From assembly GCA_029762625.1 (NCBI GenBank), contig JARVGI010000013.1, forward strand, positions 1 to 54,253: a stretch of DNA of 54,253 bases, in the 5' to 3' direction. Positions 4,581 through 16,310 of the stretch are shown piece by piece. Below the pieces are notes generated by a model. It had not been told where the DNA came from and did not search any database. It worked only from the letters and a program-made list of their open reading frames with translations. Every line of letters begins with the position of its first letter. The stretch's first letter is position 1. Position numbers and translations under genes: made by a program. This stretch comes from Methanomicrobiaceae archaeon (GTDB lineage: Archaea; Halobacteriota; Methanomicrobia; Methanomicrobiales; Methanomicrobiaceae).

Positions 4581-5549
4581 ATGTCAGATGGTATAAATAT
4601 CTTGAGGCTATCGCTTGCAGCCATCCTCGTGCTCGGAATCTGCCTTGCCGGGTGTACCGGAACGGAAAATCAGGATGGCCAGACGACACCGAACGAAACG
4701 GCTGCACCTCCTTCGGGTGAACAGCTGAGAATCGCCACGACGACAAGCCTGTACGATACCGGACTTCTTGATAGGATCGAGGACACGTATGAAGCGCAGA
4801 CCGGCGTTGATCTTCAGATCTCCTCACAGGGAACGGGAAAAGCGATTGAACTGGCGACACGTTGCGACGTAGATCTCCTCTTCGTGCACTCGCCATCTCA
4901 GGAGCAGGCATTCCTCGATGCAGGCTATGGGACCAACCACCGTTGCATCGCCTACAACTTCTTCCAGATCGTAGGCCCCGAGGACGATCCTGCAGGCATC
5001 GCAGGCATGGACCCGGTAGAGGGATTCAGAGAGCTCTATGAGCAGGGCACGGCCGAGGAGCCTGGTGTGCAGTTCGTCTCCCGCGGCGATGATTCGGGCA
5101 CGCATTCCAAGGAGAAGACCCTCTGGGATATGGCCGGCTATGACTACGAGACCGATGTGCGTGGATCCGGCGAATGGTACGTTGAAGCCGGCAAGGGCAT
5201 GGGTGAAACCCTTGTTATGGCGAGTGAAACGGACGCCTATACACTGACCGATGAGGGAACTTACCTCGCTTTCCAGGGTGATCTAGTGCTCGTCCCCATC
5301 ATTGACCAGGGCGACGCGCTGCTGAACCGCTACAGTGTCATGGCAGTGAATCCAGAGCACTGCCCCGGTGTCAATATCGAGGAGGCCAATAATTTCATCG
5401 ACTGGATGATCTCGGACGAGGCGAAGGATCTGATCAGTTCATTTGGCGTGGAGGATTACGGAAAAGCGCTCTTCACTCCGCTCTACGCGCCGGAGTGCAC
5501 GGCAACCCCGTTCAACTGCTCCTGCGCGGAACCGGTCTCCGAGACGTGA
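4581..5549 (+). CDS. tupA: tungstate ABC transporter substrate-binding lipoprotein, TupA type
   Basis: A 322-residue binding protein. Residues 1-25 are a lipoprotein signal ending in LAGC (Cys25). After a Thr/Pro-rich spacer comes the TupA hallmark IATTTSLYDTG at 51-61, then DLLFVHSP, a SRGDDSGTHSKE loop and GMGETLVMASE, all characteristic of high-affinity tungstate-binding proteins rather than ModA. It would be membrane-anchored, facing the pseudoperiplasm, and deliver oxyanion to TupB. It is the first gene of tupABC, followed 68 bp later by tupB. Tungstate preference over molybdate is inferred from the family; the Cys residues near the C-terminus are unusual extras. Confidence 0.88.
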   Translation: MSDGINILRLSLAAILVLGICLAGCTGTENQDGQTTPNETAAPPSGEQLRIATTTSLYDTGLLDRIEDTYEAQTGVDLQISSQGTGKAIELATRCDVDLLFVHSPSQEQAFLDAGYGTNHRCIAYNFFQIVGPEDDPAGIAGMDPVEGFRELYEQGTAEEPGVQFVSRGDDSGTHSKEKTLWDMAGYDYETDVRGSGEWYVEAGKGMGETLVMASETDAYTLTDEGTYLAFQGDLVLVPIIDQGDALLNRYSVMAVNPEHCPGVNIEEANNFIDWMISDEAKDLISSFGVEDYGKALFTPLYAPECTATPFNCSCAEPVSET

Positions 5550-5590
5550 ATCTGCATACCCTTTAATGATCGGCGAGAAGCGACGGTGAT

Positions 5591-5629
5591 GGAGAGAGGA
5601 CAGTTCCACAGGAACCAATGATTAAAGGC
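5591..5629 (+). promoter_or_regulatory. tupB ribosome-binding region with intervening hairpin
   Basis: A purine-rich GGAGAGAGGA at 5591-5600 is separated from the ATG at 5618 by a small perfect hairpin, GTTCC (5603-5607), ACA loop, GGAAC (5611-5615). Folding would bring the site close to the ATG. A second in-frame ATG lies at 5630. Confidence 0.35.
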
Positions 5630-6334
5630 ATGAATGAGATCTTTCAGGATAATGAGATCATCCAGGGATTCATCCAGGCGATCGAACTCATCATATCTCT
5701 CGATCCAGATGTGATAGAGATCACCCTGCGTTCGCTCTATGTCTCCCTCTCCGCCACCTTTACCGCCTCTCTCATCGCTCTTCCCCTGGGAGCGTACATC
5801 TATTTTAACGAGTTTCGGGGAAAGCGTGCGGTTATCAATCTTCTCCAGACGCTTTATGCACTCCCGACGGTGATCGTCGGTCTAGCCGTTTTCCTGATGC
5901 TCTCCCGTTCCGGGCCTCTCGGGTTTCTGGGGATGCTCTTCACACCACAGGGTATGGTCGTTGCCCAGACGATCCTGATCATTCCCCTCATCACCGGGCT
6001 GACCGTTTCGGCACTGAGCGGCATCGACCGGGAGATGCGCTATACCATCATCTCGCTGGGATCAAGCCAGCTGCAGTCGATCGTCACCATCCTCCGGGAG
6101 GCGAGGTTTGCCATACTGGCGGCGGTGCTTCTCGGGTTCGGCCGGGCCATCGCTGAGGTGGGGACGGTGATGCTGATCGGCGGCAATATACGCGGGTTCA
6201 CGCGTGTGCTGACCACCGCCATCGCCCTTAACACCTCCATGGGGAATTTTTCCTTCTCGATCGCCCTCGGGATTATCCTTTTAAGCGTGGCGCTGGTGGT
6301 CAATATCATCCTCAATGTCGTCCAGGGGCGGTAG
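5618..6334 (+). CDS. tupB: tungstate ABC transporter permease, TupB type
   Basis: A 238-residue integral membrane protein with about five or six hydrophobic segments. It contains the binding-protein-dependent permease loop, seen as SLGSSQLQSIVTILREARFAILAAVLLGFGRAIAEVG in two short blocks: the EAA-like ILREAR and GFGRAIAEVG. It would form a homodimeric channel for tungstate with TupC. The start is ATG 5618, or possibly 5630 (MNEIFQDNE). It ends 3 bp before tupC, so the two are certainly co-transcribed and probably co-translated. Length and topology match TupB of other archaea and bacteria. Confidence 0.88.
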   Translation: MIKGMNEIFQDNEIIQGFIQAIELIISLDPDVIEITLRSLYVSLSATFTASLIALPLGAYIYFNEFRGKRAVINLLQTLYALPTVIVGLAVFLMLSRSGPLGFLGMLFTPQGMVVAQTILIIPLITGLTVSALSGIDREMRYTIISLGSSQLQSIVTILREARFAILAAVLLGFGRAIAEVGTVMLIGGNIRGFTRVLTTAIALNTSMGNFSFSIALGIILLSVALVVNIILNVVQGR

Positions 6335-6337
6335 CAG

Positions 6338-7432
6338 ATGATTGAAGCGGAGAATATCACCAAAGTCTATGGCGAGATGGAAGTCCTCCATGGTGTCGAT
6401 CTCTCGGTAGGAGAGGAAGATATCCTTGGGATCATCGGGCCGAGCGGGTCAGGAAAGAGCACGTTTTTGCGCGTCCTCGACCTGATCGAACCGCCGGATG
6501 CAGGAGAGCTCTCGATCTTCGACGTGGATGTGGTGAAGCATTCGGACCGCGTGGTCGAGTTGCGGCGGCGGATGGGAATGCTCTTCCAGAAACCCATCGT
6601 CTTCAACACATCCGTCCATGAAAACGTCGCGATGGGGTTGAAGTACCGGCACGTGAGCAAGGACGAGATCGACCGGAGCGTGAAGGAGATGCTGGAGGCC
6701 GTCGGCCTTGCCCGGTATATCAGGAGCAATGCGAGAAACCTCTCCGGCGGGGAGCAGCAGCGCGTCTCCCTCGCCCGGGTGCTGGTCACCGAACCCGAGA
6801 TCCTCTTCCTGGACGAACCCACGGCGAACCTGGATCCAAAATCTGCGGAGACCATCGAACGCCTGGTCATGCGCATGAACAGGGACCGGGGGATGACCGT
6901 GGTGATGAACACCCACGATATGCTCCAGGGACAGCGTGTTGCAAAACGCATCGGCGTGATGATCGGGGGTGATATTCTCCAGGTGGGCAGTCCCCGGGAG
7001 ATCTTCTACGCCCCGAACAGTACAAGGATAGCCAATTTCGTTGGCGTCGATAACATCCACGACGGGAAGGTTCTGGGAAGGGAACACGGGATTACCTCGG
7101 TCGAGGTGGCCGGGACTACGCTGTACGTTGGGGAGTCCCCCCCGAAACAGCGTGACCGTGTCAAGGTCATCTTCCGGGGCGAGGATGTGACCATCGGTGT
7201 CGGGGAAACCGCACAGACGAGTGCCCGGAACGTCCTCAACGGCACCATTGCTGAGGTTTCAGATGTTGCCCCCTTTGTATACGTGAAAGTCGACTGCGGG
7301 TTTCCGGTGAGTGCGCTTGTCACCATGCGATCGGCGGAGGAGATGGCGCTTGAAGAGGGCACGCAGGTATGGGCGTCCATCAAAGCAAGTACGTTGCATC
7401 TGATTGCCGAATCGGAAGAAAGCGAAGGGTAA
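6338..7432 (+). CDS. tupC: tungstate ABC transporter ATP-binding protein, TupC type
   Basis: A 364-residue ABC ATPase. Walker A GPSGSGKST is at 34-42, the signature LSGGEQQR at 135-142, and Walker B ILFLDEPT around 155-162. Unlike the short bacterial TupC it carries a C-terminal extension of about 130 residues that ends in a Mop/TOBE-like domain (TSARNVLNGTIAEV through VWASIKASTLHL). Such domains bind oxyanion and can shut the transporter down when the metal is plentiful. That mode of feedback is known for ModBC/ModC and is inferred here. It acts at the cytoplasmic face with TupB. The storage-protein gene starts 46 bp downstream. Confidence 0.88.
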   Translation: MIEAENITKVYGEMEVLHGVDLSVGEEDILGIIGPSGSGKSTFLRVLDLIEPPDAGELSIFDVDVVKHSDRVVELRRRMGMLFQKPIVFNTSVHENVAMGLKYRHVSKDEIDRSVKEMLEAVGLARYIRSNARNLSGGEQQRVSLARVLVTEPEILFLDEPTANLDPKSAETIERLVMRMNRDRGMTVVMNTHDMLQGQRVAKRIGVMIGGDILQVGSPREIFYAPNSTRIANFVGVDNIHDGKVLGREHGITSVEVAGTTLYVGESPPKQRDRVKVIFRGEDVTIGVGETAQTSARNVLNGTIAEVSDVAPFVYVKVDCGFPVSALVTMRSAEEMALEEGTQVWASIKASTLHLIAESEESEG

Positions 7433-7478
7433 ACAATACTCTTTTCATGCATCGCAGTACTGTAGGGAGATGAGGAAC

Positions 7479-8285
7479 ATGACGCACCGGCGGGATCTCG
7501 ATTCAAAACTGAAAGGCGAATCACTGGTACGAAAAGGGCTTCTGAAACGCTACATGGGCCGCGCTCAGCTCAAGATCGCCCCCGACCTCAATATCATTAA
7601 AATCGGGGGGCACGGGATCATCGACTACGGTGCGCCCGTCGTCAAACCGCTTGCCGATGAGATCGGGAATCTTTCGAAGGAATACAAAATGCTGGTGGTG
7701 ACCGGGGGCGGGGTGAGGGTCCGGCATATCCTCGATATCGGCCTCGACCTTGAGATGCCGACCGGAGTTCTCGCCGAGCTCGCCGGAAAGATCAGCGAGC
7801 AAAATGCCATCATGATCGCGGTTCTCCTCTCGAAATACGGGGGTATGCGGATCCATACCGCCGATCTGCTCGACATCCCCATGCTCTTGAGGATGGGACT
7901 GCTTCCGGTCACCCACGGAACGCCCCCCTATGGGCTTTACGAGTATCCCCCCGAGATCGGGATGATTCCTCCCCACCGCACCGACACCGGGGCGTTTCTC
8001 GCCGCAGAGGTACTGGGGGCTCGGTCCTGCATCCTCGTCAAGAATGTGGACGGACTGTATACGGAAAATCCTGAGGAAAATCCTGATGCCGAACTGATCC
8101 GCGATATCACGGCGCAGGAGCTGATCGATATGGATATGGAGGACCTCGTGCTGGAGGACAAGGTGGTGACGCTTCTCCGGGATGCAAAGAACGTCGCCGA
8201 GGTCAGGATCGTCAACGGCCACAAGCGTGGCATGCTTGAGAAAGCGCTGAAGGGGGAAAATCCAGGATCAATTATACGAAAATAA
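7479..8285 (+). CDS. molybdenum/tungsten storage protein-like (MosA/MosB, amino acid kinase fold)
   Basis: A 268-residue amino-acid-kinase/UMP-kinase-fold protein. Blocks recall the Azotobacter molybdenum storage protein: IKIGG at 40-44, TGGGVRVRH near 75-83, GVLAEL, EQNAIM, GTPPYGLY at 147-154, IPPHRTDTG at 163-171, and VKNVDGLYTENP at 187-198. That protein stores polyoxomolybdate or tungstate clusters in an ATP-driven hexamer. I chose ATG 7479 because GGGAGATGAGG precedes it at a good distance; ATG 7470 is an alternative. It follows tupC and sits between two Mo/W importers, which supports metal storage over UMP kinase activity. Only one subunit gene is present, so a homohexamer would be required. 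Confidence 0.75.
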   Translation: MTHRRDLDSKLKGESLVRKGLLKRYMGRAQLKIAPDLNIIKIGGHGIIDYGAPVVKPLADEIGNLSKEYKMLVVTGGGVRVRHILDIGLDLEMPTGVLAELAGKISEQNAIMIAVLLSKYGGMRIHTADLLDIPMLLRMGLLPVTHGTPPYGLYEYPPEIGMIPPHRTDTGAFLAAEVLGARSCILVKNVDGLYTENPEENPDAELIRDITAQELIDMDMEDLVLEDKVVTLLRDAKNVAEVRIVNGHKRGMLEKALKGENPGSIIRK

Positions 8286-8379
8286 TCCTCGTCATCGCTT
8301 TTTGAGAGCAAGATTTCTGAGTATTCATGCCAAGCACGAGAATCTATTTTCCTCAGCCGTACACGATGGGTCTGGCAAT

Positions 8380-8440
8380 ATGCTAACTATGTTTATTTAA
8401 TTAATTTACAAGGTTTAAGTTCAAAAATAAAGTCTTATGT
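8380..8440 (+). promoter_or_regulatory. AT-rich promoter of the wtp operon
   Basis: The gap 8286-8464 contains GCTAACTATGTTTATTTAATTAATTT in two adjacent elements, TTTATTTAATTAA around 8391-8403 and CAAAAATAAAG around 8422-8432. Either could be the TATA box for wtpA. A CTAAC...TTTATT arrangement resembles the other Mo-gene promoters in this window. Confidence 0.4.
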
Positions 8441-8464
8441 AGGTTGGAAGAAATCTATTTTTTC

Positions 8465-9544
8465 ATGAACCGTACGCATGTAGTTCTTGTACTTGCTGCG
8501 ATACTCTGTACCGCTGTATTCTTCTGCGGATGTACCGGCACGGAGACCGAACAGGGCCAGCAGACCCCTGCAGCAACGGCAACGCCGACAGCAACGGCGA
8601 CATCAGTACCGGCGGAAGAGACCACCCTCGTGGTATACCATGCCGGCAGCCTGACCAGTCCCTTCGAGGCGCTGAAGGCGGAATTCGAGGCCGAGTATCC
8701 GCATGTCGATGTGCAGCTCCGCCCCGGCGGCAGCACAGCGATCGTCAAGGAGATCGTTGAGCTCGACAAGCATGCCGACGTCCTCGCCTCGGCAGACTAC
8801 GCGCTCATCCCGAGCCTTATGGTGCCCGATGACGCGGAATGGTATGTCACCTTCGCCAAGAATACCATGGTCCTGGCCTATACGGACCAGAGCCTCTACG
8901 CCGACGAGATAAACGCCGACAACTGGTACGAGATCCTGGCCCGTGACGATGTGCGCTGGGCATTCTCCGACCCGAACCTTGACCCCTGCGGCTACCGGAC
9001 ACCCATGGTCATCCAGCTTGCGGAACTCCACTATGGTGACGACCAGATCTTTGAGAACACCATCGGTGCGAACAGCAACATTACGGTGACTGAGGAGGAT
9101 GGGGTCTATATGATCAACTCCAATAACCCCGAGCCCACCGGGCAACTCTCCATCCGGCCCAAGAGCGTGGAGCTCGTCCAGATGGTGCAGGCCGGCGGTA
9201 TCGATTACGCGTGGGAGTACCGCAGCGTGGCTGTCCAGAACGACCTGAACTTTGTGGAGCTCCCCGAAGCAATCGACCTCTCCTCGATCGAGTATGCCGA
9301 CACCTATGCACTGGTGAAGGAGGACTGTGGTGGCGGCATCAAGACTGCAAGCCCCATCGTCTATGGCGTCACCGTGCCCACGAACGCCGACAACCCTGAA
9401 ATCGGCCTGGCATTTGTGGAAATGCTGATCGGCGAAACAGGACAGACGATCATGGATAACGAAGGACAGCCCCCCATCGTTCCGTCGGGAGGCTTCCTCG
9501 ATGTTCCTGAGGATCTTGGTCCCCTTGTCGAACAACAATCCTAA
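8465..9544 (+). CDS. wtpA: molybdate/tungstate ABC transporter substrate-binding lipoprotein, WtpA type
   Basis: A 359-residue binding protein of the archaeal WtpA class. I prefer the ATG at 8465 to a TTG seven codons upstream, because it directly begins the signal peptide. The lipoprotein Cys is at residue 23 in FFCGC, followed by a long Ala/Thr/Pro linker. Diagnostic stretches are LVVYHAGSLT, RPGGSTAIVKEI, FAKNTMVLAYT and SDPNLDPCGYRTP, the region where WtpA supplies carboxylate ligands for octahedral coordination of tungstate. It is anchored outside the membrane and feeds WtpBC. The following gap carries a U-tract and hairpin, consistent with excess production of the binding protein over the permease. 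Confidence 0.92.
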   Translation: MNRTHVVLVLAAILCTAVFFCGCTGTETEQGQQTPAATATPTATATSVPAEETTLVVYHAGSLTSPFEALKAEFEAEYPHVDVQLRPGGSTAIVKEIVELDKHADVLASADYALIPSLMVPDDAEWYVTFAKNTMVLAYTDQSLYADEINADNWYEILARDDVRWAFSDPNLDPCGYRTPMVIQLAELHYGDDQIFENTIGANSNITVTEEDGVYMINSNNPEPTGQLSIRPKSVELVQMVQAGGIDYAWEYRSVAVQNDLNFVELPEAIDLSSIEYADTYALVKEDCGGGIKTASPIVYGVTVPTNADNPEIGLAFVEMLIGETGQTIMDNEGQPPIVPSGGFLDVPEDLGPLVEQQS

Positions 9545-9604
9545 TTTTTTTCATTTTCCCGTCCAAATACTGGACGATGATACTGGAAACTGGTAGTATC
9601 GTTG
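9545..9604 (+). promoter_or_regulatory. U-tract and hairpin in the wtpA-wtpB gap
   Basis: Directly after the wtpA stop comes a run of seven T (9545-9551), then CGATGATACT (9575-9584) that can pair with AGTATCGTTG (9595-9604), with two G-U pairs and a 10-nt loop. It could be a partial terminator or processing site that lowers wtpBC expression relative to wtpA. Function is inferred. Confidence 0.4.
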
Positions 9605-9651
9605 ATTTCGTAGAAAAACCTTGAAAATCCAGAACATTTCAGTGATATACC

Positions 9652-10464
9652 ATGCGCAGCCGGCACCGTCTTCCTGATCCCTGTATTCTCTCGTTTTCCC
9701 TGATCGGTGGGCTGATCGTTGGGCTGACCGTGCTTGCCCTGCTCAATATGGCGGTCAAAGAGATCTCCGATATCCCGTTTCTCATCGCGACGGCATCGGA
9801 CAGCGGTGTGATCAATGCCATCGCGGTGACTATGGGCGCGGGGCTGAATGCCGTGATCATTCTCCTCATCATCGGCACCCCGCTCGCCTACGTCCTTGCA
9901 CGCACTGATTTCCGGTGGAAGGGCGTGGTGGAGGGTCTTGTGGACATCCCCATCATGCTGCCCCACACCGTCGCCGGCATCCTGGTCTACCTCCTGTTCA
10001 TGCGGAGGGGGCTACTGGGGGCGCCGCTCTATGAAATGGGTTTCTCCTTTGAGGATGCCTATCCGGGCATCGTAATCGCCATGCTCTTTGTATCTGCGCC
10101 ATATTTCGTCAACTCCGTGCGGGAGGGATTCGAAAAAGTCCCCGTCCACCTCGAGAACGTGGCGCGCACCCTCGGGGCAACCCGTTTTCAGACCTTCATG
10201 CGCGTGGTGCTCCCCCTGAGTGTGCGCCATATCTTTAACGGGAGCATCCTCGCCTGGGGGAGGGCTATCGGCGAGTTTGCCGCCATCATCATGATCGCCT
10301 ACTATCCATTCGTGATCTCGACCCTCATCTACTATACCTTCACCACCCGCGGTATCAAGACGAGCAGCACTGTCGCATTCGTGATGATCCTCGCGTGCTT
10401 TGCAGCGTTCATCATCCTGCGCCTGCTCACGCGCTACACAGGGAGGTACGATGATCGAGTTTGA
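9652..10464 (+). CDS. wtpB: molybdate/tungstate ABC transporter permease, WtpB type
   Basis: A 270-residue permease with about six membrane spans. The conserved cytoplasmic coupling loop is visible as ENVARTLGATRFQTFMRVVLP followed by GSILAWGRAIGEFAAI, the G-R-x-I-G-E-F pattern typical of ModB/WtpB proteins. It forms the translocation pore for the oxyanion delivered by WtpA. It begins 107 bp after wtpA, and its stop overlaps the start of wtpC by 14 bp, showing translational coupling to the ATPase. The exact ATG is uncertain because no strong ribosome-binding site precedes it. Confidence 0.9.
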   Translation: MRSRHRLPDPCILSFSLIGGLIVGLTVLALLNMAVKEISDIPFLIATASDSGVINAIAVTMGAGLNAVIILLIIGTPLAYVLARTDFRWKGVVEGLVDIPIMLPHTVAGILVYLLFMRRGLLGAPLYEMGFSFEDAYPGIVIAMLFVSAPYFVNSVREGFEKVPVHLENVARTLGATRFQTFMRVVLPLSVRHIFNGSILAWGRAIGEFAAIIMIAYYPFVISTLIYYTFTTRGIKTSSTVAFVMILACFAAFIILRLLTRYTGRYDDRV

Positions 10465-11548
10465 ACGGGTTTCATTGCGCCTGGGCACCTTTGCCCTCAG
10501 GGAAGTCTCCTTCACCATTCGACAGGGCGACTTCTACTTTATCATTGGGCCGTCGGGTGCGGGAAAAACAGTGCTTCTCGAGGCCATCGCAGGCCTCCAT
10601 GCACCGCAGTCGGGACATGTTCTCCTCCGCGGCGAGGACGTCGCCGGCATTCCGCCTGAGAGGAGACGCATTGCCCTTGTCTACCAGGATTATTCCCTGT
10701 TTCCGCATATGAATGTCGCAAAGAACATTGCGTTCGGTCTGAAGATGCAGAAGGCTGACCGCCGTACCGTTGAAAAACGGGTTGAGGAACTCCTTCAGGC
10801 CTTCGATATCGAGGGGCTCCGTGACCGCAGCCCCCTCACTCTCTCCGGCGGGGAGCAGCAGCGGGTTGCGATCGCCCGCGCCCTTGCGGTGTCACCCGAT
10901 ATCCTCCTCCTCGACGAGCCGTTTTCCGCCCTCGATCCCCTGACCAAAGACAAATTCATCGAGGATCTGCGGGAGGTACACCGGACGCATGATCTTACTA
11001 TCGTCCAGGTGACGCACGCCCGTGATGAGGCCAAGCGCCTTGCCAGCCGGGTGGCGGTGATCATCGAGGGCGTTCTCGCTGCTGAAGGCGGTGTGGAGCA
11101 GATCTTCAATGCACCGGACACCTGCGAGGTGGCGCGATTTGTGGGCATCGAAAATATCCTCCCCGGCACGATCATCTCCGGCAGCGATCACGTGGTGAAA
11201 GTCGATACGGGAGCGGCGACGATTACTGCGGTCTCTGACCTTCACACGGGAGAGGGCGTTGCTGTCTGCTTCCGCGCGGAAGACGTGACCCTCTCGCCAC
11301 CGGGAAGCCCGCGGTCAAGCGCCCGGAATACATTCGAGGGCACCATCACGGGATTCACCCCCATGGGGCCCCTCGTGCGGGTCTCCATCGATTGCGGGTT
11401 CCCCCTCGTCGCCACGGTTCTCAGGGACACCGTGAATGAGATGGGGCTCGCCCCGGGATCGCTGGTCTCTGCTTCGGTCAAAGCGAGCATCATCCACCTG
11501 ACATCGAGATCGCCGGTGCACAGAGACATGTACACTAAATTCAGTTGA
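10451..11548 (+). CDS. wtpC: molybdate/tungstate ABC transporter ATP-binding protein, WtpC type
   Basis: A 365-residue ABC ATPase. The ATG at 10451 follows GGGAGGTACG and overlaps the wtpB end, which is better than an upstream in-frame ATG buried in wtpB. Walker A GPSGAGKTV is at 33-41, the signature LSGGEQQR at 131-138 and Walker B ILLLDEPF at 151-158. A C-terminal Mop/TOBE domain (SSARNTFEGTITGF through VSASVKASIIHL) probably senses cytoplasmic molybdate or tungstate and inhibits uptake, as known for related ModC proteins. The C-terminal domain is strikingly like that of the TupC protein in this window, including a VDCGFP/IDCGFP core. Confidence 0.9.
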   Translation: MIEFERVSLRLGTFALREVSFTIRQGDFYFIIGPSGAGKTVLLEAIAGLHAPQSGHVLLRGEDVAGIPPERRRIALVYQDYSLFPHMNVAKNIAFGLKMQKADRRTVEKRVEELLQAFDIEGLRDRSPLTLSGGEQQRVAIARALAVSPDILLLDEPFSALDPLTKDKFIEDLREVHRTHDLTIVQVTHARDEAKRLASRVAVIIEGVLAAEGGVEQIFNAPDTCEVARFVGIENILPGTIISGSDHVVKVDTGAATITAVSDLHTGEGVAVCFRAEDVTLSPPGSPRSSARNTFEGTITGFTPMGPLVRVSIDCGFPLVATVLRDTVNEMGLAPGSLVSASVKASIIHLTSRSPVHRDMYTKFS

Positions 11549-11611
11549 TTAACTTGATTTATTCATGAAAAATGCAAATGCTTATTTTTGCGCAATAATG
11601 ACTAATTGAAC
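11549..11611 (+). promoter_or_regulatory. promoter of modA
   Basis: The 63-bp gap contains GATTAACTTGATTTATTCATG and GCTTATTTTT at about 11579-11588, a TATA-like element roughly 28 bp before the modA ATG. No ribosome-binding site is seen, so a leaderless message is likely. AAAAAT...ATTTTT half-sites flank the middle of the region. Confidence 0.45.
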
Positions 11612-12424
11612 ATGAAGAGGATAACTTTCATTGTCTTCATTGGATTGGTGGTATGTGCAGCGCTCTTTGCATGCGGATGCACCGAATCACAGCCCGCAGA
11701 AACCGGGACGCCCGAAGCAGAGGCCGGGGGATCGCTTCTGGTCTACTGCGGTGCGGGGATGCGGGAGCCCATGGATGAGATTGCCGACCTGTTTGAAGAG
11801 CAGGAAGGGATCACCATCCAGTACACCTATGGCGGTTCCGCACAGCTCTTGAGCCAGATCGAGCTCTACCAGACCGGCGATGCCTACATGCCCGGGGCGA
11901 CATCGTACATCGATTCCGCCATTGCAAAAGGATTCGTGGACAAGACCGAGAAGGTGGTCTACCATGTGATGGCTATGGTTGTACCCAAGGGCAACCCGGC
12001 AGGCATCCAGACGCTGGAGGATCTCACAAAGCCCGGTGTCCGCGTGGCTATCGGTGAGCCCACCGGCCCTGCCGTCGGACAAGCGGCAAAGAAGATGCTC
12101 GAAAAAGACGGCATGTGGGAGGCAGTCGAGGCGAACTGCGTGGTGAAGTCGGGCACGGTCAACGAGCTCTTAGTCTACGTCTCGATGAACCAGGCGGACG
12201 CCGCCATCATATGGGAGGATCTCTACAACGAGGAGGCCATGGATCTGATTGACATCCCCCTGGAAGAGGGATTCGTCAAAGTCGTCCCCATCGGAACGCT
12301 CACTTTCTCTGAAAACCCCGAAAATGCCGAGAAATTCATACGATTCGTGGCATCGGATGAAGGGCTGGCGATCTTCGAGAAGCACGGGTTCACCACGTAC
12401 CCTGATGAAAAGTATGGTATGTGA
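11612..12424 (+). CDS. modA: molybdate ABC transporter substrate-binding lipoprotein, ModA type
   Basis: A 270-residue type 2 periplasmic binding protein. Residues 1-23 form a lipoprotein signal ending in FACGC. LLVYCGAGMREPMDEIADLF and YGGSAQLLSQIE match the ModA oxyanion-binding loops, where backbone and Ser/Thr side chains hold tetrahedral molybdate; later IGEPTGPAVGQAAKKML and NQADAAIIWEDL complete the fold. It is shorter than WtpA and lacks its DPCGYRTP element, so it is a separate ligand-binding class. It has its own promoter and is separated from trmO-modBC by 336 bp, although it is presumably the binding protein for ModBC. A T-rich tract follows the gene. Confidence 0.85.
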   Translation: MKRITFIVFIGLVVCAALFACGCTESQPAETGTPEAEAGGSLLVYCGAGMREPMDEIADLFEEQEGITIQYTYGGSAQLLSQIELYQTGDAYMPGATSYIDSAIAKGFVDKTEKVVYHVMAMVVPKGNPAGIQTLEDLTKPGVRVAIGEPTGPAVGQAAKKMLEKDGMWEAVEANCVVKSGTVNELLVYVSMNQADAAIIWEDLYNEEAMDLIDIPLEEGFVKVVPIGTLTFSENPENAEKFIRFVASDEGLAIFEKHGFTTYPDEKYGM

Positions 12425-12760
12425 GGGCCTTGTGGTTTACAAATTCTCTCTCCTTTTTTCCCGTGGGTTCCGGCGGATTTGTTAACCGATCGCGATTTAT
12501 TTAACGGCCATATTGCATGAGAAAATAAACACTGTTAATTACTATTGAATATCAAGGTGTGGTTATGAAGTATGCATCTGCAGGCGGTTGTACGACGCCG
12601 GGCGTCTCTCCTCTCGTTGTATATGCGTCCGGAGCAATGCATGTGGCATCGCGGACCGTATCCCCGGGCAGGAATCCCCGACCGCCGGTTTCTCCTCATG
12701 AGGCAGTCCATAAACCGGAATCATAAACCAGATAAACGCAACATTCAGGAGCGGCTACCA
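12425..12760 (+). promoter_or_regulatory. terminator-like tract, promoter and long structured leader before trmO-modBC
   Basis: This 336-bp gap holds a T-run at 12453-12458, a GTTAA/TTAAC inverted pair (12481-12485 and 12501-12505), TATA-like AT-rich sequence up to about 12540, and then about 220 bp before the trmo ATG. The leader contains nested inverted repeats: CCGGTTT (12685-12691) with AAACCGG (12712-12718), enclosing the palindrome CCTCATGAGG (12694-12703). A GGCG...CGCC pair lies at about 12583-12599. The ribosome-binding site is AGGAG at 12747-12751. No known riboswitch class was recognised. Confidence 0.45.
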
Positions 12761-13306
12761 ATGAAAGACCAGAAAAAAGGAAACTCCCCCGAAATGGGGG
12801 AAGGGATCGTGTACAGTCCTATCGGGGTCATCCACTCCGAATATACCGAACAGGAGGAGACCCCCATCCAGGGAATCTTCAACCCTTCCGTGGGTGAAGT
12901 GGAGGTATTCCCCGAGTTTGCTGCGGGACTCGCCGATATTGAGTCGTTCTCGCACCTCTACCTCCTGTACCACTTCCATCGGGCGACGGGGGCGAATCTC
13001 ATCCAGAAGCCGTTCCTCGACGGGGAGAAGGAGCGGGGAATCTTTGCCATCCGCCACTTCAACCGTCCGAACCCGATCGGACTTTCCATCGTGGAGCTTG
13101 TTGAGGTAAAGGGCAACATCCTGGTCATACGCGGCGTCGATATCCTCGACGGCACCCCGCTGCTGGACATCAAGCCCTACGTGCGCCAGTTTGATCACCG
13201 CGACGAGGTGAAGAGCGGCTGGGTGGACAACCAGCATACCGACGATATCGCCGCATGGAACGCCTCGCCGCGGGGCCTGCGCGACCGGGGGAGGACAAAC
13301 CTGTGA
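12761..13306 (+). CDS. TrmO/TsaA-like (UPF0066) family protein
   Basis: A 181-residue protein of the TsaA/UPF0066 family, whose characterised member TrmO methylates N6 of t6A37 in tRNA-Thr with S-adenosylmethionine. Visible motifs are SPIGVIHSEYTE at the start, FSHLYLLYHFHRA, FAIRHFNRPNPIGLS and a late LLDIKPYVRQFD. The ATG at 12761 has AGGAG nine bases upstream; an in-frame extension to 12572 is non-coding leader. The modB start overlaps its stop by 4 bp (GTGA), so it is translationally coupled to the molybdate permease. In this setting a role linked to molybdenum rather than tRNA is possible, and the substrate is not shown by sequence. Confidence 0.8.
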   Translation: MKDQKKGNSPEMGEGIVYSPIGVIHSEYTEQEETPIQGIFNPSVGEVEVFPEFAAGLADIESFSHLYLLYHFHRATGANLIQKPFLDGEKERGIFAIRHFNRPNPIGLSIVELVEVKGNILVIRGVDILDGTPLLDIKPYVRQFDHRDEVKSGWVDNQHTDDIAAWNASPRGLRDRGRTNL

Positions 13307-14097
13307 ACGTGTTCGGCCATTCGCCCCTGAAAGTTGTCAGCATCGGTGCGGGGATGCTCCTCACCGCATTCATCGCGGTGCTGCTCTTTCTCATCGTGAG
13401 CCACCCCTCCCCGGAGAATCTCATTGCATCCATGCTTTCGACCGAGATCCAGTTTGCGATCACGCTGAGCCTGATCACCTCGGTGGTATCGACCGTGCTG
13501 TGCATCATCATCGCCGTCCCGGCGGCATACGGCCTCGCGCGCTATGAGTTTCCGGGCAAGAGTGTGGTCAATACCGCCCTTGACATGCCGCTCGCCCTCC
13601 CGCCTCTTGTCGCGGGGGTGGGGCTCCTGCTCTTCTTCGGGACAAGCCCGTTTGGGAAAGGGCTCGCAGAGGCGGGTCTCGTGTTCGTGTTCACCCCGCT
13701 GGGCATCATCGCCGCGCAGTTCTTCGTGAACATGCCGTTCATGATCCGCATCATGCGCTCAACCTTCGAGAGCATCAGTCCCCGATACGAGTACGTGGCA
13801 AAGACGCTCGGCTGCACGGATCTCCAGGCGGTGTGGCGGGTCACGCTGCCCATGGCGGCGAGCGGCTTTTTCGCGGGAGCGGTGATCACGTGGGCAAAAG
13901 GGATCGGTGAGTTCGGCGCCGCGCTGCTCCTTGCCGGGGCGACGCGCATGGTGACGGAGACACTGCCCATCTCCCTCTTCCTGAACATGTCGTGCGGCAA
14001 CCTGAACATGGCGATTTCCGCAGCCACCATCCTGATCGCCATCTCGATCTGTTCCCTGTACGTCTTCGAACGCTACGGGGGGAGTGCCCGCTTCTAG
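13303..14097 (+). CDS. modB: molybdate ABC transporter permease, ModB type
   Basis: A 264-residue permease with about five or six hydrophobic spans. I chose the GTG at 13303 because GGGGGAGGA lies 8 bases upstream and it gives a 4-bp overlap with the preceding stop; upstream codons lie inside trmo-like coding sequence. The N-terminal domain ATQ-like segment is not obvious, but the coupling region AKTLGCTDLQAVWRVTLPMA and GAVITWAKGIGEFGAAL is clear and typical of ModB/CysU proteins. It forms the molybdate pore in the cytoplasmic membrane, working with ModC 11 bp downstream and presumably ModA upstream. Confidence 0.88.
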   Translation: MNVFGHSPLKVVSIGAGMLLTAFIAVLLFLIVSHPSPENLIASMLSTEIQFAITLSLITSVVSTVLCIIIAVPAAYGLARYEFPGKSVVNTALDMPLALPPLVAGVGLLLFFGTSPFGKGLAEAGLVFVFTPLGIIAAQFFVNMPFMIRIMRSTFESISPRYEYVAKTLGCTDLQAVWRVTLPMAASGFFAGAVITWAKGIGEFGAALLLAGATRMVTETLPISLFLNMSCGNLNMAISAATILIAISICSLYVFERYGGSARF

Positions 14098-14108
14098 GAG
14101 GCCCGTGT

Positions 14109-15155
14109 ATGCTGCGTATCGAACATGTATCCAAGGACATGGGAGAGTTTCTGCTCAAGGACGTCTCGCTGCAAGTGTCGCAGGGCGAGTATGTGGTCAT
14201 TATCGGCCCCACCGGCGCAGGAAAGACCATCCTCGTGGAAACTGTCGCCGGCATCTACCCGCCGGATGCGGGCAGAGTATTGCTCAATGGGAGGGATATC
14301 ACCCACGAGGAGCCGAGGAACCGCAACATCAGCATGGTGTACCAGGACTACATGCTCTTTCCCCACCTCTCGGTGCATGACAACATTGCATTCGGGCTCC
14401 GGAACCGGCAACTGGAAAAACCCGAGATCGAACGGCGGGTCGAGGAGAGCGCGGACCTTCTCGGCATATCCCATCTCCTCCACCGCCGCCCCGATACCCT
14501 CTCGGGCGGTGAGCAGCAGCGCGCCGCCATCGCCCGCGCCATTGTGATGGAACCCTCGGTGCTCCTCCTCGACGAACCGCTCAGTGCGCTCGACGGACGG
14601 ACCCGGGAGGCGCTCAGGAAAGAACTCCGGCGCCTGCACGATACGATGGATATCACCGTCCTCCACATCACCCACAATTTCGAGGAGGTGTTCTCGCTGG
14701 CAGACCGGGTGGCGGTCATGAACCGCGGGGAGATCGTCCAGGACGGCGCACCCGACGAGGTCTTTCGAAAACCGAACTGCGAATTCATCGCTGATTTCGT
14801 GGGAGTGGAAAACCTCTTTAAGGGGATGTGCAGACTGGACAACGGTAATGCGATCATCGAGACCGGGGATCTCAGCCTGGTCTCGACGACCTGCACCCGG
14901 GAGGGTGAGGTGTTCGTCTCCGTCCGGCCCGAAGATATCATGGTATCCCGGACAAAGCCGGAGATCAGCGCACAGAATGTGTTTGCAGGAACGGTCACCG
15001 AGAGTGTGAATAACGGGATTGTGATGCGGGCGGTGGTGGATGCGGGCATCCCCTTCGTCGTCACCCTCACTCGCCAGGCATACCAGGACCTCGATATCAA
15101 GAAGGGGGATTCGATCTATCTCCTTTTCAAAGCAGCGTCGGTGCATGTATTCTAG
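14109..15155 (+). CDS. modC: molybdate ABC transporter ATP-binding protein, ModC type
   Basis: A 348-residue ABC ATPase starting at ATG 14109 behind a strong AGGAGG. Walker A GPTGAGKTI is at 33-41, the Q-loop in VYQDYMLF, the signature LSGGEQQR near residue 130 and Walker B VLLLDEPL near 150. A C-terminal Mop/TOBE domain (SAQNVFAGTVTESV to FKAASVHVF) is expected to bind molybdate and trans-inhibit transport. This makes it the third oxyanion ATPase in the block with such a sensor domain. It couples ATP hydrolysis to ModB. The MOT1-type permease follows 45 bp later and is probably part of the same transcript. Confidence 0.88.
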   Translation: MLRIEHVSKDMGEFLLKDVSLQVSQGEYVVIIGPTGAGKTILVETVAGIYPPDAGRVLLNGRDITHEEPRNRNISMVYQDYMLFPHLSVHDNIAFGLRNRQLEKPEIERRVEESADLLGISHLLHRRPDTLSGGEQQRAAIARAIVMEPSVLLLDEPLSALDGRTREALRKELRRLHDTMDITVLHITHNFEEVFSLADRVAVMNRGEIVQDGAPDEVFRKPNCEFIADFVGVENLFKGMCRLDNGNAIIETGDLSLVSTTCTREGEVFVSVRPEDIMVSRTKPEISAQNVFAGTVTESVNNGIVMRAVVDAGIPFVVTLTRQAYQDLDIKKGDSIYLLFKAASVHVF

Positions 15156-15200
15156 ACGAAGCGCACTGCATGGTTCCTCCATGCGTGGGGAGGCTTCCCG

Positions 15201-16310
15201 GTGACGGAAACTCGCTCGCTACGCCTGCATCCGGAAGAAATCGCCGGCTCGGTGGGTAATTTCGGCACCGTTTTGCCTATCGTGTTCGGGGTCGCTGCCG
15301 TAGCGGACATCAACCTCGGCACCGTCCTCCTCTTCTTCGCCCTGTGGTACGCGGTGATCGGGATCGTCTACGGCATCCCCATACCCATAGAACCCCTGAA
15401 GGTGGTGGGGGCGGTGGTTATCGCCGAAGGTCTCTCTTCGGGCGATATCATGGCGGCGGGGATGCTCACCGGCCTGATTTTCCTGTTCCTTGGGCTCATC
15501 AAAGGGATGCGCTACATCAGGGAGAAGATCCCCACCAGCGTGATCCGGGGCATCCAGCTCGGGCTCGCGCTGGTGCTGGTCAACACCTCCCTGCGATTCA
15601 TCAGCCAGGATCCCATATTCGCCTTTGCGGCGATCGGCCTCATTGCCATCTTCTTTATTGCCAGCAGCAGGTCGTCAATTCCGGATATATCTGCGCTCAT
15701 TGTCATAATCGCCGGGATCGGGTTTGGCATTGCGGGCTATGGCATACCGCCGCTGCAGCTGCCCCCTGTTCCCGGCATCATCATTCCGGATATGCAGAAC
15801 ATCATCACCGCCCTGGTGCGTCTGGTGCCGCCGCAGTTTCCCCTGACCCTCACCAACGCAATTCTTGCCACCTCGGTGCTCGCCCACGATCTCTACAAAC
15901 GCGAAATCGAGCCGGATCGGCTTTCCATCACCATCGGCCTCATGAATATCATCTCTGTGCCCTTCGGGGCGTTTCCCATGTGCCATGGGGCGGGAGGGCT
16001 TGCCGCCCACTACCGCTTCGGGGGAAGAACCGCCGTATCCAATATCATCGGCGGGGGTATTCTGCTCGCGTTTGCGCTCTTCTTCGCGCATCCCGATACC
16101 CTCACCATTCTCCCTGCGGGCATGTTCGGTGCGCTGCTGGTGTTCGTGGGCATCGAGCTGGGAAAACACGGTATCAAAACCGATGACTACCTTGTATCGG
16201 GAAGCATGGCCGTAGTGGCGCTTATCGGCGGGATGACGGTCGCCTTCGTATTCGGTCTTCTTTTCGCCGCGGTCCGGCGCCGCATGCAGTTTAGGCCAGG
16301 TTCGGGCTAA
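15201..16310 (+). CDS. MOT1-type molybdate (or sulfate) permease
   Basis: A 369-residue, highly hydrophobic protein with about ten membrane spans. The family hallmark FPMCHGAGGLAAHYRFGGRT is present (split here as FPMCHGAGG and AHYRFGGRT), together with an N-terminal NFGTVLP and IPIEPLK, as in plant and algal MOT1 molybdate transporters of the SulP-related group. The start is GTG at 15201, behind GGGGAGG. It is the last gene of trmo-modBC and gives a secondary, non-ABC route for molybdate. Sulfate transport cannot be excluded from sequence, but the neighbourhood favours molybdate. Coding runs to TAA at 16308-16310, followed by an A-rich stretch. Confidence 0.85.
   Translation: MTETRSLRLHPEEIAGSVGNFGTVLPIVFGVAAVADINLGTVLLFFALWYAVIGIVYGIPIPIEPLKVVGAVVIAEGLSSGDIMAAGMLTGLIFLFLGLIKGMRYIREKIPTSVIRGIQLGLALVLVNTSLRFISQDPIFAFAAIGLIAIFFIASSRSSIPDISALIVIIAGIGFGIAGYGIPPLQLPPVPGIIIPDMQNIITALVRLVPPQFPLTLTNAILATSVLAHDLYKREIEPDRLSITIGLMNIISVPFGAFPMCHGAGGLAAHYRFGGRTAVSNIIGGGILLAFALFFAHPDTLTILPAGMFGALLVFVGIELGKHGIKTDDYLVSGSMAVVALIGGMTVAFVFGLLFAAVRRRMQFRPGSG

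Follow-up and report, generated by a model that had tools for sequence, protein, structure and literature searches.

The gene at positions 7479–8285 of the window, the whole 54,253-nucleotide stretch of DNA analysed here, encodes a homologue of the molybdenum storage protein (MoSto) by sequence, fold and family-specific insertions. Sequence comparison places the product in the MoSto family as a different subtype, which is neither MosA nor the two-subunit form. With a probability of about 0.68, it is an ATP-driven, homo-oligomeric store of Mo/W oxyanions with altered cavity chemistry that feeds formylmethanofuran and formate dehydrogenases; we infer the oligomer, the ATP-driven loading, the storage, the cargo and its destination by homology. 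The features of the locus, all on the plus strand, and of the protein are as follows.

4581–5549, +, TupA-like tungstate/molybdate binding protein, below the NCBIfam equivalog cut-off
5618–6334, +, TupB-like permease, NF038017 above cut-off
6338–7432, +, TupC-like ATPase with TOBE domain, ending 46 bp before the MoSto start
7479–8285, +, single-subunit MoSto-type protein with amino acid kinase fold, 268 aa
8468–9544, +, WtpA tungstate/molybdate binding protein, above NCBIfam cut-offs
9652–10464, +, WtpB-like permease
10448–11548, +, WtpC-like ATPase with TOBE domain
11612–12424, +, ModA molybdate binding protein, TIGR01256 above cut-off
13255–14097, +, Mod-type permease, TIGR01581 above cut-off
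14112–15155, +, WtpC-type ATPase, NF040840 above cut-off
15201–16310, +, MOT1-family molybdate transporter, PF16983
Protein residues K41, G76–G78, R80, R82, H83, D169 and K188, ATP site
Protein residues 1–36, N-terminal arm, and about 148–167, PPY-to-PPHR loop, both MoSto-specific

The open reading frame is ATG-initiated and spans exactly 7479–8285, and a purine-rich stretch precedes the ATG at 7479. A longer frame starting from a TTG at 7404 was rejected because it overlaps the upstream ATPase gene and the starts of the relatives align near 7479. Comparison with the gene of the nearest relative, whose protein is 94% identical, resulted in a dN of 0.035 and a dS of 0.573; the MoSto gene is therefore under strong purifying selection. 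The protein contains KIGG (residues 41–44), GTPPYGLY (147–154), IPPHRTD (163–169) and VKNVDGLYTENP (187–198), the four blocks on which the earlier note had based its claim of a MosA/MosB-like protein. The counterparts are KIGG, GMPPYKLW, IPPYRTD and VKDEDGLYTANP in MosB, and KIGG, AFPPYHHH, IPPHRAD and VENVDGIYTADP in MosA. The blocks are common to the three proteins, yet non-identical.

That claim is borne out by database scores and by the fold. Comparison with all PDB sequences yielded 193 bits for MosB (E = 6.5e-56 with MosB of Azotobacter vinelandii) and 154 bits for MosA, against at most 44 bits for UMP kinases; by this measure, the similarity to MosB is far beyond chance. A monomer model computed by AlphaFold2 from an alignment of 48 relatives, plasmid sequences left out, has a pLDDT of 94.2 and a pTM of 0.90. 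The Foldseek search of the PDB with this model returned MosB and MosA chains at ranks 1–15, with TM scores of about 0.82–0.92, followed by UMP kinases at 0.70. Alignment to archaeal UMP kinases of the same fold shows two elements that are present in MoSto and missing from UMP kinases: the N-terminal arm, about 35 residues long, and some 14 extra residues ahead of PPHRTD. The Pfam match is to the superfamily AA_kinase (PF00696) alone. The NCBIfam search of the protein matched no MoSto model, and the archaeal pyrH model TIGR02076 (pyrH_arch) scored 67.2 bits, below its cut-off of 158.05. The true MosA and MosB of Azospirillum likewise are below-threshold pyrH matches, and MosB copies are labelled 'uridine kinase' in public records. 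Because NCBIfam showed no MoSto model even with true MosA and MosB, MoSto proteins are prone to automatic naming as uridylate kinase. The source genome encodes a separate archaeal UMP kinase (PyrH, 268 bits), and a pyrH match was found in the genomes of 20 of 20 relatives, in 19 of them over the cut-off.

The MoSto gene is flanked by a TupABC-like operon (4581–7432) and a WtpABC operon (8468–11548). WtpABC is followed by ModA, the Mod-type permease, the WtpC-type ATPase and MOT1, up to position 16310. The position between two Mo/W importers asserted in the earlier note was thus confirmed, with importers more numerous than it had listed. The TupC-like gene ends 46 bp upstream and runs in the same direction, so the tupABC-like genes and the MoSto gene are probably co-transcribed. 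An Rfam scan of the window for an RNA switch returned tRNA only. A Mo/W permease, binding protein or MOT1 lies within about 8 kb of 56 of the 60 archaeal MoSto loci and of none of 17 control loci, for which equally large windows centred on UMP kinase genes were taken; four archaeal MoSto loci have no such importer nearby. The gene order varies among the archaeal loci, with the company of Mo/W importers kept. Among 13 Desulfobacterota loci, Tup components are nearby in four and Wtp in one.

The TupABC-like operon 46 bp upstream, a Tup-type component near 45 of the 60 archaeal loci and the use of tungsten enzymes by methanogens would all suit a store specific for tungsten, which is a narrower form of the homo-oligomeric store and overlaps with it in probability. 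Such restriction is unlikely, since transporters of the WtpA, ModA and MOT1 types lie next to the gene as well, the TupA-like protein falls below its equivalog cut-off and Azotobacter MoSto takes both metals (PMC6448029).

Several loci merit separate description. In the BL5_bin.5 genome, the gene order of 4581–16310 around MoSto is kept, with two ModA-like genes versus one. A TrmO-type gene (PF01980, tRNA methyltransferase O N-terminal domain) at 12572–13306 lies between the ModA and Mod-type permease genes, and is found beside ModA/ModB in roughly 27 related archaeal loci, which suggests a link to molybdate transport that has so far gone unrecognised. One importer-free archaeal locus has FmdE of a molybdenum formylmethanofuran dehydrogenase operon nearby. 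One genus has diverged MoSto genes in single copy (L139 and L140) with no Mo/W importer nearby, and that of L139 adjoins an ArgZ-like gene and Cache-domain sensors.

Residues K41 and K188 are invariant in 71 of 71 archaeal proteins and are equivalent to MosB K42 and K189. The structure of a K42S variant of MosB is available (PDB 6RIS), and the position of the second lysine is occupied by Glu in MosA (E190). Given the invariance of the MosB-type lysines, every archaeal subunit seems to resemble MosB and to be capable of catalysis. The cavity residues present a different picture. MosA E129, H140 and H156 correspond to H126, L136 and G152 in the archaeal protein. MosA H140 is a ligand of the tungsten cluster on the threefold axis. 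MosA H156 and E129 bind octamolybdate covalently (PMC4504029). None of the single-gene forms has the full MosA ligand set: H156 and H140 are missing in every one, and Glu occurs at the E129 position only in a few. The position of MosB Met149 (Met-beta-149) is Thr in 71 of 71 archaeal sequences; in 2019, Bruenle et al. reportedly proposed this methionine as the molybdate gate in a pumping model. Conserved candidates in the archaeal proteins are H45 (68/71), E155 (71/71) and H248 (70/71), with H126, H146 and H166 conserved less strictly. The comparison of cavity residues that the earlier note had called for thus upholds the likeness at the ATP site, where the MosB-type lysines are kept, and not in the cavity, whose equivalence is not to be assumed with MosA E129, H140 and H156 replaced. 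Judged from these alignments, the ATP engine is retained and the cavity remodelled. With other residues in place of the MosA ligands and the MosB Met gate, neither the route of entry nor the clusters laid down can be the same as in Azotobacter. Several clusters of Azotobacter MoSto are held on nonpolar residues by van der Waals contacts (PMC4504029), so clusters could be deposited even with the ligands lost.

In the proposed mechanism, identical subunits would form a cage, most likely a hexamer that, like MoSto and UMP kinase, consists of three dimers, and MgATP would occupy the amino-acid-kinase groove of every subunit. Molybdate and/or tungstate would be delivered by the adjacent Tup, Wtp, Mod and MOT1 importers, and ATP hydrolysis would move the oxyanions into the cage, where they would condense. 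The stored metal would later go to formylmethanofuran and formate dehydrogenases, not to nitrogenase. A more detailed version falls slightly short of even odds. In it, the oxometalate store is a homohexamer, every subunit is able to carry out catalysis, and the clusters stay in place with no need of the MosA His/Glu ligands; the store would supply W/Mo for methanogenesis and represent a single-gene form from or alongside which the MosA/MosB division of labour arose.

Invariant ATP-site residues in the absence of the known cluster ligands, together with a neighbourhood that points to Mo/W and not to storage as such, might alternatively describe a kinase-like Mo/W handler that uses ATP to activate, buffer or sense the oxyanion with no cluster deposition. 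This is rather improbable, as the MoSto-specific loop and N-terminal arm, absent from UMP kinases, are retained, H126, H146 and H166 are candidate ligands, and MosA/MosB themselves hold several clusters by contacts other than ligands (PMC4504029).

A search of the whole source genome, which is 99.8% complete, identified a single MoSto-like gene, in agreement with the single-subunit gene of the earlier note. The one-gene form is no peculiarity of this genome: in the sample of the phylum, about 83 genomes belong to the same order and 58 of them carry MoSto, mostly as the sole copy, and in Desulfobacterota MoSto occurs in 22 of 297 genomes, most with one match. The single-gene form is thus not confined to archaea. 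Two tandem copies are present in seven genomes of one archaeal genus, and the tree places them as an independent archaeal duplication. In most of these pairs (L126, L127, L128, L129, L134, L136 and L138), one copy has Lys, Ala or Ser where MosA has E129 and the other mostly has His, a hint that subunit specialisation arose a second time. In a Desulfobacterota tandem pair, one copy (L160:9787-10599, genome G452) has lost the ATP-site lysine and has Gly instead, which is reminiscent of the division of labour between MosA and MosB.

The (alpha-beta)3 architecture of Azotobacter MoSto and the tandem copies in one archaeal genus raise the alternative of a hetero-oligomer whose second, highly diverged subunit is encoded elsewhere in the genome. 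This alternative is very unlikely. The genome, 99.8% complete, contains no second full-length match, its remaining amino-acid kinases resemble aspartokinase, NAGK, IPK, UMPK, carbamate kinase and MfnE in sequence, and the UMP kinases that share the MoSto fold are homohexamers. An assembly of identical subunits remains the preferred reading.

A maximum-likelihood tree of 69 proteins, UMP kinases included, splits the UMP kinases from all MoSto-like proteins with support of 100/100, the protein studied here lying outside the UMP kinase group; it also does not have the UMP-kinase motif structure. The protein is located inside one archaeal group (support 100/100), which together with ten Desulfobacterota sequences forms one clade (support 99/95). 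Outside this clade are MosA and MosB of Azotobacter and Azospirillum and two divergent Desulfobacterota tandem pairs. The branch to the UMP kinases exceeds 8 changes per site, and the tree does not fix their attachment point or the order of events. Grouping the protein with the UMP kinases was not rejected by the AU test (p-AU 0.257); we read this value as uncertain root placement on a very long branch and not as kinship, which is discounted because the protein is 57–94% identical to other archaeal MoSto proteins. A single paired clade that unites MosA and MosB with the Desulfobacterota pairs was likewise not rejected (p 0.63), so that one gene and two genes are both compatible with the tree as the ancestral state. 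The alternative of a UMP kinase, or of another small-molecule enzyme of the amino-acid-kinase family that merely resembles MoSto, can appeal to the shared superfamily PF00696 and to the proneness of MoSto proteins to 'uridylate kinase' auto-names, but has next to no probability, being opposed by the scores, the fold ranking and the separate UMP kinase, on which UMP kinase identity as such was rejected, as well as by the MoSto-specific insertions and the Mo/W neighbourhood.

The archaeal group also contains one bacterial sequence, from Pelobacter sp. UBA6093 (L042). An archaea-only clade without it was rejected (p = 0.009), so a transfer of the MoSto gene into this bacterium is likely. In this genome (L042:1275-10801), the archaeal-type MoSto gene immediately follows TonB/ExbB genes, and a TonB receptor and a CbiQ-type ECF importer are encoded upstream, so the store thus acquired may serve a system that takes up metal through the outer membrane.

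Azotobacter MoSto supplies nitrogenase (PMC6448029). The source genome has three genes over the cut-off for formylmethanofuran dehydrogenase B (FwdB/FmdB) and no NifD over the cut-off. Among the listed genomes of the order, NifD is rarer with MoSto (7 of 58 genomes) than without (9 of 25), in a count that ignores relatedness. A nitrogenase store as in Azotobacter was rejected: as the genome has no NifD over the cut-off and NifD shows no positive link to MoSto across the order, supply of nitrogenase is unlikely here. The likely metal users are the pyranopterin enzymes of methanogenesis.

No description of an archaeal single-subunit MoSto was found in the open-access papers searched. There is presumably a CDD family that covers MosAB-like proteins. 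Detailed knowledge of biological polyoxometalate storage comes from a single bacterium, in which its hallmarks are two specialised subunits and nitrogenase supply. MoSto has been stated to have no known homologues in protein databases (PMC6448029). If the present reading is true, a widespread one-gene form in methanogens extends polyoxometalate storage to archaea and to the W/Mo enzymes of methane formation, offers a natural test of the residues needed to pump and hold metal, and corrects many automatic 'uridylate kinase' annotations. Methanogenic archaea, too, probably make use of metal-oxide storage, for which one kind of subunit would then suffice.

The closest characterised system is MosA/MosB of Azotobacter vinelandii (PDB accession numbers 2OGX, 4NDO, 6RIS and 6H6W), which shares full-length homology, the amino-acid-kinase fold, the N-terminal arm, the PPY-PPHR loop, the MosB-type ATP-site lysines and the association with Mo/W. 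It differs in having two genes and an (alpha-beta)3 assembly, whereas the archaeal protein has one gene, replaces MosA E129/H140/H156 and MosB Met149, and is encoded with importers and without nitrogenase association. The MosB-MosA plasmid pairs of Azospirillum (L044 and L045) belong to the same family, with MosB about 40% identical to the archaeal protein, but are true adjacent pairs that keep the MosA ligands. The single-gene relatives in Desulfobacterota (e.g. L151–L156), with which the archaeal proteins are joined in the tree, likewise have one gene per locus, both lysines and no MosA ligand set, and some adjoin Tup/Wtp importers; they are about 41–47% identical, their gate is mostly Met, and the histidines of the ligand region differ. 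Archaeal UMP kinase (PyrH) has the same fold and ATP site and lacks both the arm and the loop. The tungsten storage protein Tub of Eubacterium limosum is a TOBE-domain protein (PMC11980592), alike in its proposed role of tungsten storage and different in fold, which is not that of an amino-acid kinase.
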